Below, piece after piece: positions 5,541-11,265 of a stretch of DNA of 46,557 bases (positions within the stretch are counted from its first letter, which is position 1; each line of letters opens with the position of its first letter). The stretch lies in NCBI GenBank assembly GCA_030829955.1, contig JAURNY010000015.1, positions 1-46,557 of the forward strand, given 5' to 3'. Under the pieces are notes generated by a model. The model was not told where the DNA came from. It did no database searches and saw nothing but the letters and a program-made list of their open reading frames with translations. This DNA is from Gammaproteobacteria bacterium (GTDB lineage Bacteria; Pseudomonadota; Gammaproteobacteria; Eutrophobiales; Eutrophobiaceae). The translations under genes were made by a program, and so were the position numbers.

Positions 5541-6326
5541 TTAATGATTGAATGGAATGACTTCAGCATCAGCATCTTCTTCCAGTTCATTTTCATCAAA
5601 TTCGGATGCTTCTTGTGTGTCGGTAAGGCCACCCTCATCCTCTGCATCATCTTTTAATTCATTTTTAATGTTGACGTCGTAATCTTCTATAGCAGAATTG
5701 TCTTCAACATCCTGTTTTTCTAGTGTTTCATTATCACTGGTATCGACAGGTTTGTTTTCTTCTAGTGCCTCAAACAGATCAGGATTGATGGAATCAAAAT
5801 CCTTAATATCCGCCAATGCAGGCAAGTCGGATAATTTTTTCAGATTAAAATAATCAAGAAAGCCTTTAGTCGTTGCCAGCAATGCAGGTTTGCCCGGCAC
5901 ATCTCGATGACCTACAACTTTAACCCATTCACGTTCCTGCAGTGTTTTCACGATACCGCTGCTCACACTGACGCCACGAATATCCTCAATCTCTGCACGT
6001 GTAATCGGTTGACGATAGGCAATAATGGCTAATGTTTCCAATAGCGCTTTAGAATAACGTGGTGGACGTTCATCGAATAAACGATTTACCCATTCGGCAT
6101 AATCATTACTTACCTGTACACGAAAGCCACTCGCGACTTCAACAATTTCCATACCCCGACCCTCGTAATCAACCTGCAGCTTTTCAATAGCAGCACGAAT
6201 ATCATTTCGTTCAGGTTGTAACTCTTCACCTTCAATAAATAAATTCAGTAAGTGGTTAATAGTTAATGGTTGGTTTGCCACCATAATGGCGGCTTCAATA
6301 ATATTTTTTAATTTATTCTGACTCAT
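5541..6326 (-). CDS. scpB: Segregation and condensation protein B
   Basis: ScpB is the winged-helix (kite) partner of ScpA in the SMC-ScpAB condensin, which organises and segregates the chromosome. Typical segments are LLETLAIIAYRQPITRAEIEDIRGVSVSSGIVKTL (about residues 94-128) and the downstream VGHRDVPGKPALLATTKGFLDYF. The last 80 residues are highly acidic and low-complexity, longer than in many ScpB proteins. Its start overlaps the scpA stop by 4 bases (ATGA), so the pair is translationally coupled. Confidence 0.94.
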   Translation of the reverse strand: MSQNKLKNIIEAAIMVANQPLTINHLLNLFIEGEELQPERNDIRAAIEKLQVDYEGRGMEIVEVASGFRVQVSNDYAEWVNRLFDERPPRYSKALLETLAIIAYRQPITRAEIEDIRGVSVSSGIVKTLQEREWVKVVGHRDVPGKPALLATTKGFLDYFNLKKLSDLPALADIKDFDSINPDLFEALEENKPVDTSDNETLEKQDVEDNSAIEDYDVNIKNELKDDAEDEGGLTDTQEASEFDENELEEDADAEVIPFNH

Positions 6327-7135
6327 GATGCTGCCTTAACGTAAATAGGCCCATTAATTTCGTTCTGGACCAGTTGAATCAAAGAATCTTTAACTAATTG
6401 CAATATCGCAAGTAATGACACTACAACACCGGCACGACCTTCCTCAATCTGAAACAGATCGGCAAAATCAGTAAACGTATCCGGATTGACCTTATCCAAT
6501 ACAATACTCATGCGTTCTCTTACCGAAAGCGCTTCGCGCTTGATCTGATGATGACTAAACATATCCGCACGACGCATTACCTCTGCAAACACTTTTAATA
6601 CAGAGTCCATCGAAACATCTGGTGGTTTTTGATTGATCTTGCGACCAGTAAACTCAACCACGGCACCAAAAATGTCGCGTTCATAGCGGGGAATCTCATC
6701 CAGTTTTTCTGCAGCTTGTTTAAAACGTTCATATTCCTGTAAACGTCTGATCAGTTCAGCTCGAGGATCGTCTTCTTCCTCTTCGCTATCACGTCGTGGT
6801 AACAACATACGTGATTTTATTTCAGCCAACATCGCTGCCATCAATAAATACTCACCAGCAAGCTCTAACTGCAAGGATTCCATCAATTCGATATAACCCA
6901 TGTATTGTTCAGTAATTCTCGCTAGTGGAATGTCGAGAATATCAATGTTCTGTTTTTTAATCAGATACAGTAATAAATCCAATGGTCCTTCGAATGCCTC
7001 AAGAAAAACCTCAAGCGCATCAGGTGGAATATATAAATCCTTGGGTAACTCCGTAATCGGCGCACCCTGAACGATAGCAAAAGGCATCTCTTTTTGATCG
7101 ATACCTGTAGCCTGGCTTTGAGTTTCTTCGTTCAT
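6323..7135 (-). CDS. scpA: Segregation and condensation protein A
   Basis: ScpA is the kleisin that bridges the heads of SMC-type condensin. The N-terminal kleisin motif FEGPLDLLLYLIKKQNIDILDIPLARITEQY (about residues 48-78) is classical, and the C-terminal winged helix is recognisable (VVSLLAILQLVKDSLIQLVQ). The 270 aa length is normal. It precedes scpB with a 4-base overlap. Upstream, between it and trpS, lies an imperfect inverted-repeat element, so scpA may be transcribed from trpS or from a promoter within that element. Confidence 0.94.
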   Translation of the reverse strand: MNEETQSQATGIDQKEMPFAIVQGAPITELPKDLYIPPDALEVFLEAFEGPLDLLLYLIKKQNIDILDIPLARITEQYMGYIELMESLQLELAGEYLLMAAMLAEIKSRMLLPRRDSEEEEDDPRAELIRRLQEYERFKQAAEKLDEIPRYERDIFGAVVEFTGRKINQKPPDVSMDSVLKVFAEVMRRADMFSHHQIKREALSVRERMSIVLDKVNPDTFTDFADLFQIEEGRAGVVVSLLAILQLVKDSLIQLVQNEINGPIYVKAAS

Positions 7136-7157
7136 TTATAAATCGTATTTTAATTTA

Positions 7158-7295
7158 GAGAGCTTCGCACAGATAGAAATTTTGTTCTCAGACGAGGCAA
7201 AAATTCGCGCGGAAGCGGAGTTTATAAAAAATAAATGAGCATTCGAGCAAATTATTAACGAAGTATTGGGACAAAATAACATCTGTGAGAATCTC
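7158..7295. repeat. Imperfect inverted-repeat (MITE-like) intergenic element
   Basis: The space between trpS and scpA is an imperfect palindrome about 138 bases long. The left arm begins GAGAGCTTCGCACAGATAG (7158-7176) and continues into AAATTTTGT. The reverse complement of the right end (7295-7268) reads GGAGATTCTCACAGATGTTA then TTTTGTCCC. CACAGAT (7168-7174) and ATCTGTG (7281-7287) match exactly. The right end directly touches the trpS stop codon. No second copy was noticed in this window. It could be a dispersed palindromic unit or a terminator/processing structure. Confidence 0.5.
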
Positions 7296-8507
7296 CTAAC
7301 GATAAACTAGATGCATTGCATCTCTAACTTCTTCCAATGTTTCGCGCGCAACATCGCGGGCAGCTTCACAACCGTCCGCAATAATACCGCGTACAGTTTC
7401 AGGATCATTCATATATTCTTCCGCGCGCTCACGTATTGGACTCTGCTCTTTTAATACAGCATCTATTAAAGGTTTCTTGCAATCAATACAGCCTATTCTG
7501 GCATTGGTGCAACCATCTACTACCCATTCACGTGTTGATTCATCGGTGTAAACCTGATGAAAACTCCATACCGGACATTTTGATGGCTCACCCGGATCGG
7601 TTTTTCTAACCCTGGCTGGATCGGTTTGCATGGTGCGTAACTTTTCTTCGACGACTGCCGGATTCTCTCTCAATGAAATCGTATTACCATAGGATTTCGA
7701 CATCTTTTGTCCGTCCAGACCAAGTAATTTTGATGCCGGGGTTAATAGTGCCTGAGGCTCTGGAAAGATAGCCTTACCTAAACCATCAAGAAAGCCACTC
7801 AGACGTTCACGATCACCAATACTGATATTCTGTTGGGATTCTAGTAATGCCTTTGCCTTTTCCAGTGATTGTATATCGCCCTGCTCCTGATAACTCTTGC
7901 GCAGATTCTTATAAAGTTTCGCATTCTTTTTGCCCATTTTTTTCAGGGCAGCCTCGACCTTATCTTCAAAATCAGGTTCTTTTCCGTATAAATTATTAAA
8001 GCGACGAACTACCTCACGTGCCAACTCCACATGAGCCACCTGATCTTCACCGACGGGGACATGTCCTGCCTTATATATAATAATGTCAGCTGTCTGCAAT
8101 AAGGGATAACCTAAGAAGCCATAAGTTGTCAGATCTTTATTGGTTAATTTTTCCTGCTGATCCTTATAACTGGGCACACGCTCTAACCAGCTTAACGGTG
8201 TGCTCATTGACAATAATAAATGTAACTCTGCATGCTCGGGCACGCGGGACTGGATAAATAATTTGGCCGCACCCGGATTAACACCGACTGCCAACCAGTC
8301 AATGACCATATCCCAGACACTCTTCTCAATGATTGTGGGGTCTTCATATTCTGTCGTTAACGCATGCCAGTCTGCTACAAAGAAGAAACACTCGTATTCC
8401 TTTTGCAGTTCTATCCAGTTTTTGAGTACGCCATGATAGTGGCCGAGATGAAGTTGACCTGTTGGGCGCATGCCAGATAACACACGCTGCTTACCGCTTG
8501 ATGCCAA
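7296..8507 (-). CDS. trpS: Tryptophanyl-tRNA synthetase
   Basis: This class I synthetase charges tRNA-Trp. The HIGH-type motif is PTGQLHLGHYHG (about residues 16-27) and the KMSKS motif is GQKMSKSYGN. At 403 aa it is about 70 residues longer than the common 334 aa form, with extra charged helices between the Rossmann core and KMSKS (around residues 185-255); longer TrpS forms are known in other gammaproteobacteria. The start is a TTG at 8507: AGGGG lies 8 bases upstream, no in-frame ATG precedes it before a stop, and the first internal ATG would remove part of the HIGH region. Confidence 0.95.
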   Translation of the reverse strand: MASSGKQRVLSGMRPTGQLHLGHYHGVLKNWIELQKEYECFFFVADWHALTTEYEDPTIIEKSVWDMVIDWLAVGVNPGAAKLFIQSRVPEHAELHLLLSMSTPLSWLERVPSYKDQQEKLTNKDLTTYGFLGYPLLQTADIIIYKAGHVPVGEDQVAHVELAREVVRRFNNLYGKEPDFEDKVEAALKKMGKKNAKLYKNLRKSYQEQGDIQSLEKAKALLESQQNISIGDRERLSGFLDGLGKAIFPEPQALLTPASKLLGLDGQKMSKSYGNTISLRENPAVVEEKLRTMQTDPARVRKTDPGEPSKCPVWSFHQVYTDESTREWVVDGCTNARIGCIDCKKPLIDAVLKEQSPIRERAEEYMNDPETVRGIIADGCEAARDVARETLEEVRDAMHLVYR

Positions 8508-10440: not shown

Positions 10441-11265
10441 ATGCCCTCGCAAAAACCTTTTCTAAAATGGCCTGGCGGAAAGTATCGTATTATTGATCGT
10501 ATCCAGGATCATTTGACTGAAGGTAATCGTCTCGTTGAACCTTTCATAGGTTCAGGTGCAGTTTTTTTAAACAGTAATTATGACAATTATTTATTGGCTG
10601 ACACCAACCCGGACTTAATCAATCTCTATAAAACCTTGCAGAAAAATGGTCAGAAGTTTATCAACTATTGTAAGCCCTATTTTTCTGATGCTAATAATCA
10701 GGCGTCAATCTATTATGAATATCGAACACTATTCAATGAAACAAAAGATGTTCGTTTAAAATCTGCATTATTTATTTATCTGAATCGTCACTGTTATAAT
10801 GGTCTCTGTCGTTACAACTCCAAACATGAGTTTAACTCACCCTTTGGCCGTTATAAGAAACCGTATTTTCCGGAAAAAGAGATGCAGGCATTTCATCTGG
10901 CCTCACAAAATGCAGAATTTATTCATGCGAGTTTCGTTGAAACCATGCAAAAGATAAAAAAAGGCGATGTCGTTTATTGTGATCCTCCCTATACACCATT
11001 AAGCAAGACTGCCTATTTCACCGATTATTTTTCCGGCGGTTTTGACTGGCAGGAACAAATCACCCTGGCTAACTGGGCGGAGAAATTGAGTAAACAAGGT
11101 ATTCCTGTTCTGATATCCAATCATGACACACAGAATACGCGGCGACTGTATAAAGGTGTTGGGGCGCGAACCAAAGGTTTTAAAGTCCGCCGCAATATTA
11201 GCTGTGACACTAAAAATAGAAACAAGATTGGCGAAATCTTCGCTGTATTTCAGGCAGCTGTTTAG
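10441..11265 (+). CDS. dam: DNA adenine methylase (GATC-type, Dam family)
   Basis: This is a 274 aa D12-class N6-adenine methyltransferase expected to modify GATC. KPFLKWPGGKYRI (residues 5-17) and VEPFIGSGAVFLN (32-44) form the AdoMet pocket, and DPPY at residues 181-184 is the catalytic motif. Length and motif spacing agree closely with Escherichia coli Dam. No restriction enzyme gene is adjacent, which favours an orphan housekeeping methylase used in mismatch repair and replication timing. It starts directly after the bolA stop, an unusual genomic neighbour for dam. Confidence 0.93.
   Translation: MPSQKPFLKWPGGKYRIIDRIQDHLTEGNRLVEPFIGSGAVFLNSNYDNYLLADTNPDLINLYKTLQKNGQKFINYCKPYFSDANNQASIYYEYRTLFNETKDVRLKSALFIYLNRHCYNGLCRYNSKHEFNSPFGRYKKPYFPEKEMQAFHLASQNAEFIHASFVETMQKIKKGDVVYCDPPYTPLSKTAYFTDYFSGGFDWQEQITLANWAEKLSKQGIPVLISNHDTQNTRRLYKGVGARTKGFKVRRNISCDTKNRNKIGEIFAVFQAAV

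Follow-up and report, generated by a model that had tools for sequence, protein, structure and literature searches.

ERIC, also called IRU or RU-1, is described in excerpts of a 2007 review as an intergenic hairpin of ~127 bp with TA at its ends (PMC2229807), and its hosts are given as Enterobacteriaceae and Vibrionaceae in part of another review (PMC10969869). Passages of both sources state that ERIC insertions at gene 3′ ends uncover an RNase E site and so alter the levels of transcripts. Correia/NEMIS, RUP, and YPAL are presented in the 2007 excerpts as short intergenic palindromic MITEs, some with TA termini, and are by this description similar to the element reported here; Pae-1, Ppu-1, and other stem-loop families of Pseudomonas, as described in part of PMC2267715, could in some cases belong to the family defined below. 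In the 2007 excerpts, the movement of ERIC-like repeats by transposases is a hypothesis for which there was no experimental support at that time (PMC2229807). Mobilisation of one bacterial MITE was reportedly shown in 2011 in work on Pseudomonas that is cited in PMC4853749.

The window, that is, the whole stretch of 46,557 nucleotides analysed here (contig JAURNY010000015.1 of a gammaproteobacterium), contains a 139-bp imperfect palindrome at 7158-7296, flanked by TA at 7156-7157 and 7297-7298, between two minus-strand genes that we take to be trpS and scpA. The interval 7158-7296 is very probably a non-autonomous transposon (MITE) that entered the trpS stop codon in the line leading to this genome and whose body belongs to a large folded family. 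On this reading, the element is a small passenger transposon with a body that is shared across many bacteria by fold more than by letters, and the class-wide family with its differing ends is not visible from the window alone. Two structure models of the family are used throughout, R1 built from 28 aligned copies and R2 from 108 sequences, with the window element in neither. The parts of the element and its neighbours are as follows.

6323-7135, minus strand: scpA, the downstream gene (matches in 43 of 52 genomes, own included)
7156-7157, no strand: left-hand TA, presumably one half of a target duplication (from the sequence)
7158-7172, plus strand: left terminal inverted repeat GAGAGCTTCGCACAG (similar ends in dispersed copies of relatives)
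7181-7274, plus strand: conserved folded body (matches models R1 and R2)
7191-7198, plus strand: outer internal loop, left motif GACGAGGC (alignment)
7199-7214, plus strand: variable covarying stem, left arm (covariation test)
7215-7224, plus strand: apex motif, left side, GCGGAGTTTA (pattern scan and alignment)
7225-7231, plus strand: apical loop, variable (pattern scan)
7232-7240, plus strand: apex motif, right side, TAAATGAGC (pattern scan and alignment)
7241-7256, plus strand: variable stem, right arm (covariation test)
7257-7265, plus strand: outer internal loop, right motif AACGAAGTA (alignment)
7283-7296, plus strand: right terminal inverted repeat CTGTGAGAATCTCC (arm complementarity)
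7296-7298, minus strand: trpS stop codon TAG (flanking TA plus outermost element base)
7296-8507, minus strand: trpS, the upstream gene, 403 aa (aligns almost end to end in most of the 29 loci from relatives)
7297-7298, no strand: right-hand TA, presumably the other half of that duplication (from the sequence)

The first-pass annotation had described inverted, related ends with an exact CACAGAT, and these are real: the arms at 7160-7174 and 7281-7295 (15 nt each) are 87% complementary, and each contains CACAGAT without a mismatch. The terminal repeat is an imperfect one, which reads GAGAGCTTCGCACAG at the left and, inward from the right end, GGAGATTCTCACAG. The predicted RNA fold of 7150-7300 has an energy of -42.1 kcal/mol versus -24.45 (sd 3.17) in 200 dinucleotide shuffles, none of which reaches the native energy (z -5.57). 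The earlier extent of about 138 bases, 7158-7295, was right on the left and one base short on the right, where the element ends at 7296. Its right end had been said to touch the trpS stop codon, and the relation is closer than contact, as the minus-strand TAG at 7298-7296 takes its TA from the flank and its G from the outermost base of the element. The element carries no transposase of its own; among ORFs of at least 80 aa, only trpS overlaps it, by the stop base 7296.

The MITE-like insertion reading of the window element is supported by the orthologous junctions. A search for scpA in 52 genomes gave a match in 43, own included, and 30 loci were examined. In 29 other loci (29 of the 42 other genomes with an scpA match), trpS adjoins scpA, and all 29 junctions, read by eye, lack the element; a search of the 30 scpA loci with R2 (limit E 1) matched only the own locus (E 2.6e-18). 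The empty sites that the first-pass annotation had proposed to look for in relatives were thus found at every other junction examined, in agreement with its suggestion of an insertion into a conserved gene string. Its proposed search for target-site duplications was answered in part: TA stands on both sides of the element, and the duplication is only a presumed one because the intergenic sequences of the relatives have diverged too far for the base-by-base alignment that a base-exact empty site calls for. Among eight copies of the window's subfamily read by eye, TA lies directly outside both ends in five (the window element, L005, L006, L007, and L116); L004 has no TA pair outside its ends, and L025 and L107 are not clearly readable. 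In two relatives (L178 and L197), trpS ends in CGT TAA, as would be expected if the element had inserted at the TA of a TAA stop and its terminal G had made TAG, and trpS is left intact because TA plus this G still reads as a stop. The ancestral trpS stop would then have been TAA, in an empty site predicted to read CGT-TAA followed by AATTAAAATACG.

A BLAST search with 7150-7300 found one copy in the own genome, with two further hits at chance level (E 0.46 and 0.86), and at E <= 0.01 gave matches in 22 of 96 genomes, own included, with up to 9 per genome; two of the 22 belong to other families of the class. The centre is common to these copies, and the outer arms differ. The dispersed repeat that had been expected from such a search is therefore present among relatives. 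The opposite outcome, a single copy with conserved orthologous sequence, was obtained only in that BLAST scores the element as single in its own genome; the junction is not conserved, and R1 adds four places there. These five R1 places are C12:7181 (the window element), C14:73109 (E 9.4e-14), C25:261 (1.4e-9), C9:2993 (2.4e-7), and C9:3112 (0.002). The discrepancy is a warning that BLAST can score an element as single copy where the fold alone is common.

Several individual copies may be mentioned here. The C14 copy (L350) follows directly on the stop codon of an ORF of 383 aa that looks like nrdB, and its arms differ from those of the window element, as do those of the two C9 copies (L352/L353), which lie ~120 bp apart. 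Extra internal segments occur in the arms of window-subfamily copies L116, L026, and L027 (G039, G029, and G007, respectively). At L114 (G039 C47, 16891), a lone end GAGAGCTTTGCACAAAT without a body stands shortly after an ORF and could be a footprint or remnant. The ends GAGCGCTTTGCACGAA of L372 (G151 C184) resemble those of the window element, and this genome is from another family of the class. Neither the plasmid nor the phage collection contains a match to the window element, and a source in either was accordingly rejected. A Pseudomonas member of the family matches 23 plasmid records and one phage record, and the apex pattern occurs in 11 viral stretches.

The recurring motifs of the body are an apex GCG[G/C]AG opposite TGAGC, an AGGC/AACG internal loop, and mostly a tandem G-A mismatch. 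Of the 369 class genomes, 46 have an exact match to the apex pattern used for scanning (GCGGAGTNTA, 5-9 bases, TANATGAGCA), and a reversed control pattern gave zero matches in the rows. When 31 class copies with 95-base flanks were folded, window element included, most formed one long hairpin with arms unrelated in sequence; L042, L049, and L057 are not cleanly one hairpin. A scan of genome contigs with the apex pattern gave at least 116 stretches, 80 of them named, and the named hosts among the matches listed include Pseudomonas, Halomonas, Chromobacterium, Nitrosomonadales, Mariprofundales, Rhizobium, several Bacteroidota, Paenibacillus, and Oceanirhabdus, among others. These stretches hold 123 pattern matches, 112 of them with 80 bases on both sides. 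At least 30 pairs form across the apex in 92 of the 112 copies versus 18 with shuffled flanks (a home-made shuffle), and at least 20 pairs in 99 versus 46; AGGC and AACG both stand on the expected sides in 62 of the 112.

Covariation was measured on 28 copies with arms less than 80% alike, drawn from 72 with the commonest arm lengths, in which AGGC and AACG lie 16 and 17 nt, respectively, from the apex, out of 201 distinct copies; the 129 with other lengths or motifs were excluded from the alignment. The 28 rows have gaps solely in the loop, and a 29-pair structure was written from the anatomy. Paired cells amount to 92.4% of 812, versus 71.2% (sd 1.0) after shuffling and 32.5-42.1% when slid by 1-3 columns. 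Both sides change in 22 of the 29 pairs versus 16.7 (sd 1.6) in shuffles, and 177 cells are changed on both sides versus 51.3 (sd 6.9); none of 500 shuffles attains the observed value on any covariation measure. The apex, AGGC, AACG, and an A bulge at column 62 are fixed by the selection of copies, the bulge by way of the scan pattern, and the arms and columns 29-30/67-68 are free. At these free columns, GA stands opposite GA in 22 of the 28 rows, and the unpaired motifs stay asymmetric between stems that change on both sides. Since the stems vary with compensatory changes, it is the folded strand rather than the letters of the arms that appears to be kept, presumably by selection. Copying between palindrome arms could explain part of the compensatory changes, but not the lasting asymmetric mismatches. 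The folded strand may be recognised by a transposase, a host protein, or RNA machinery.

Both models find the window element, R1 with 65.8 bits (E 5.1e-16) and R2 with 77.4 bits (E 1.1e-18). At E <= 0.001, R1 matched 160 of the 369 class genomes in a search whose filters were stricter and which scored no more than 11 places in any one genome. In 20 R1 hits picked from genomes without the exact pattern, TGAGCA is present in 20, AGGC in 19, AACG in 20, and the left apex GCGCAG in 16, counts to be read with the fact that the model itself favours these motifs. R2 gave from 5 to at least 150 places in each of 15 mostly non-class genomes, figures that show copy number and not frequency because the genomes were chosen from loci of the pattern scan, which also supplied the taxon names of 11 of the 15. 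Seven Bacteroidota have 8-56 places, Mariprofundales at least 150, Oceanirhabdus 39, and Rhizobium 35; Paenibacillus has 5, the best at just E 1.3e-4. The Mariprofundales genome (G430, 2 Mb) with at least 150 R2 matches holds three copies within ~360 bp at L238. A known RNA family as the identity of the element was tried and rejected: with Rfam 15, no family scored above its gathering threshold at the elements of the window and 35 loci, for which only rRNA, tRNA, and Atu_C8 are listed. A match to ceN69, a worm snoRNA, at 21.1 bits (E 0.094) versus a gathering score of 45 was taken as chance.

A 44-base sequence taken to be that of ERIC occurs in 5375 of 5426 E. coli genomes. R1 matched all four of four E. 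coli ERIC loci (79 kb) at E 0.089-0.69, and two E. coli stretches, 99.8 kb in total and each chosen for the single ERIC it contains, gave no match at E <= 10 apart from these two ERICs, whose scores are borderline (R1 E 0.11 and 0.87; R2 E 0.04 and 0.13). The ERICs of Vibrio, Rahnella, Kosakonia, and Citrobacter plasmids had no match at E <= 10. By eye, some ERIC copies have a similar layout, with AAGGC facing AACGC and a GGAG-stem-TGA; read post hoc, this layout is complete only in Citrobacter L359 of the four, and the copies from Vibrio (L356), Rahnella (L357), and Kosakonia (L358) have some of it. In contrast, the arms and ends of ERIC differ from those of the family. Given the borderline E. 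coli scores, the misses in other genera, and the incomplete layout of three of the four copies from these genera, the window element is described as built like ERIC and perhaps related to it, and it is not filed as an ERIC.

The end sequences differ between subfamilies, and a common body occurs in elements with unrelated ends. The 18-base sequence TAGCAGGCCGTTGAAAAA stands at both ends of an insertion sequence annotated as ISPst12, IS5-like (L346), with 0 mismatches each, and at both ends of ISDisp1 (L348) with 0 and 1 mismatch. It recurs with 0-2 mismatches per end at eight ends of the four elements L227, L211, L284, and L257, which in this respect resemble IS5-like MITEs; the ends of the L340 element have 2 and 3 mismatches. 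Unlike these insertion sequences, the elements have different letters just inside the ends, and their body also occurs with unrelated ends. Copies of G061 and Mariprofundales have ends that start with GTAAC, and GTAAC ends with 8-bp duplications presumably mark the IS66 family, to which these copies are likened from their ends alone. With the outer left end used, the 8-bp flanks agree at 8 of 8 positions in L089, L090, L094, and L268 and at 6 of 8 in L092 and L093; with the ends found, L091, L238, and L324 have no well-matching 8-bp flanks, and L323 lacks such ends. Duplications at ends of other types were judged by eye.

An autonomous insertion sequence with the window's ends was not found in 13 genomes or in plasmids. 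For other ends, no facing pair ~1 kb apart is listed in G217, G378, G073, G220, G165, G414, G213, and G377, with lists made at 0 or 1 mismatch in mostly draft genomes, and at four other plasmid places examined, no transposase lies directly at the match. An autonomous partner was thus found only for the ISPst12-type ends. The differing ends point to the insertion sequences that would move each subfamily: the IS5-like ISPst12 would move one and an IS66-like element with 8-bp duplications another, and the window's subfamily may be mobilised by a resident transposase that duplicates TA. Movement would in each case be in trans, by resident transposases. Two further loci bear on the ends. At L161 (G220 C24, ~14433), ends GGGCACCTCTAAAAAT surround a different palindrome, CCCGTCATTCCCGCGAAGGCGGGAATCC, so that the same type of end is seen with two different bodies. 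At L164 (G378 C13, 24779-24823), two facing ends nearly touch, forming a 45-bp remnant or minimal element. It is possible, though short of probable, that the replicating unit is a folded single-strand module (DNA or RNA) that has been re-packaged across phyla between the ends of unrelated IS5-like, IS66-like, and other transposons, with ERIC as an old branch; if true, this would be a selfish element that changes its transposase as well as its host.

Gene context was read for 102 copies that have 1 kb of sequence to either side, and 16 of them fall within naive ORFs. The 67 flanked left and right by a gene no more than 400 bases away comprise 17 sense, 24 antisense, 17 convergent, and 9 divergent copies, and there is no strand preference relative to the neighbouring genes (17 sense versus 24 antisense, P 0.35), which lends no support to a strand-specific RNA role. 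The 53 copies whose ends were located have 46 gene 3′ ends no more than 120 bases from an edge, and for 14 of these the distance is at most 4 bases; naive ORF ends may be made by the insertion, and trpS alone was compared with orthologues. A consensus scan found no promoter-like or terminator-like site inside the element and a terminator-like site at 7309-7323, inside trpS. By analogy with what has been proposed for ERIC, the likely present effect of the element would be a hairpin in the trpS-scpA transcript.

These observations weigh on what the fold is for. That the element is a transcribed RNA processing or stability element serving host regulation, as argued for Yersinia ERIC, would be compatible with its being a MITE and accords with its position between two same-strand genes and with the transcript changes reported for ERIC at gene 3′ ends in parts of PMC10969869 and PMC2229807, but the 29 other junctions do without it, no strand bias to genes is seen, and it contains no promoter- or terminator-like site, so that such a role is rather doubtful. 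Homogenisation of palindromes is a general phenomenon, and an ordinary palindromic MITE could have inherited its motifs and had its arms homogenised by template switching with the fold under no selection, to which the absence of orientation bias would also conform. However, the unpaired motifs remain asymmetric though the flanking stems change, the GA/GA mismatch of 22 of 28 rows is of the kind that homogenisation should erase, and the motifs reappear where the ends are unrelated and also in hosts of other phyla; a fold without selection is thus unlikely.

Two further explanations can be given very little weight. A local, immobile terminator or attenuator of trpS is suggested by the strong hairpin directly at the stop codon, but the only terminator-like site of the consensus scan lies at 7309-7323 within trpS and none in the element, related sequences are dispersed, and the examined orthologous junctions are empty; this candidate was rejected. 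If a RAYT/HUH single-strand transposase moved the element as a REP-like hairpin, a fold with conserved mismatches would be expected, as found here. Nevertheless, the 139 bp with terminal inverted repeats contrasts with the 20-40 bp of REPs given in an excerpt of PMC3733652, and some copies have 8-bp duplications, which makes a REP origin highly improbable. GTAG, one of the REP tags GTAG/CGTC, does occur inside some element ends. A MITE moved in trans, with a folded body kept across many bacteria, is the reading that we prefer.

A family with an ERIC-like layout whose ends name candidate transposases in some subfamilies offers concrete test systems, for example, ISPst12 in Pseudomonas, for the question of what moves such repeats and why they keep their fold. 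It also represents a strongly covarying structure without an Rfam entry. Elsewhere in the window, an ORF at 10441-11265 has a DPPY motif (by eye) and presumably resembles a Dam-type DNA adenine methylase. Among the open-access PMC papers listed, none describes this hairpin family by title or abstract start. One of five core strings of the family occurs in 65 papers; among the 20 of these that are listed, one on a sulfur bacterium (PMC3440390) has the string within a PCR primer.
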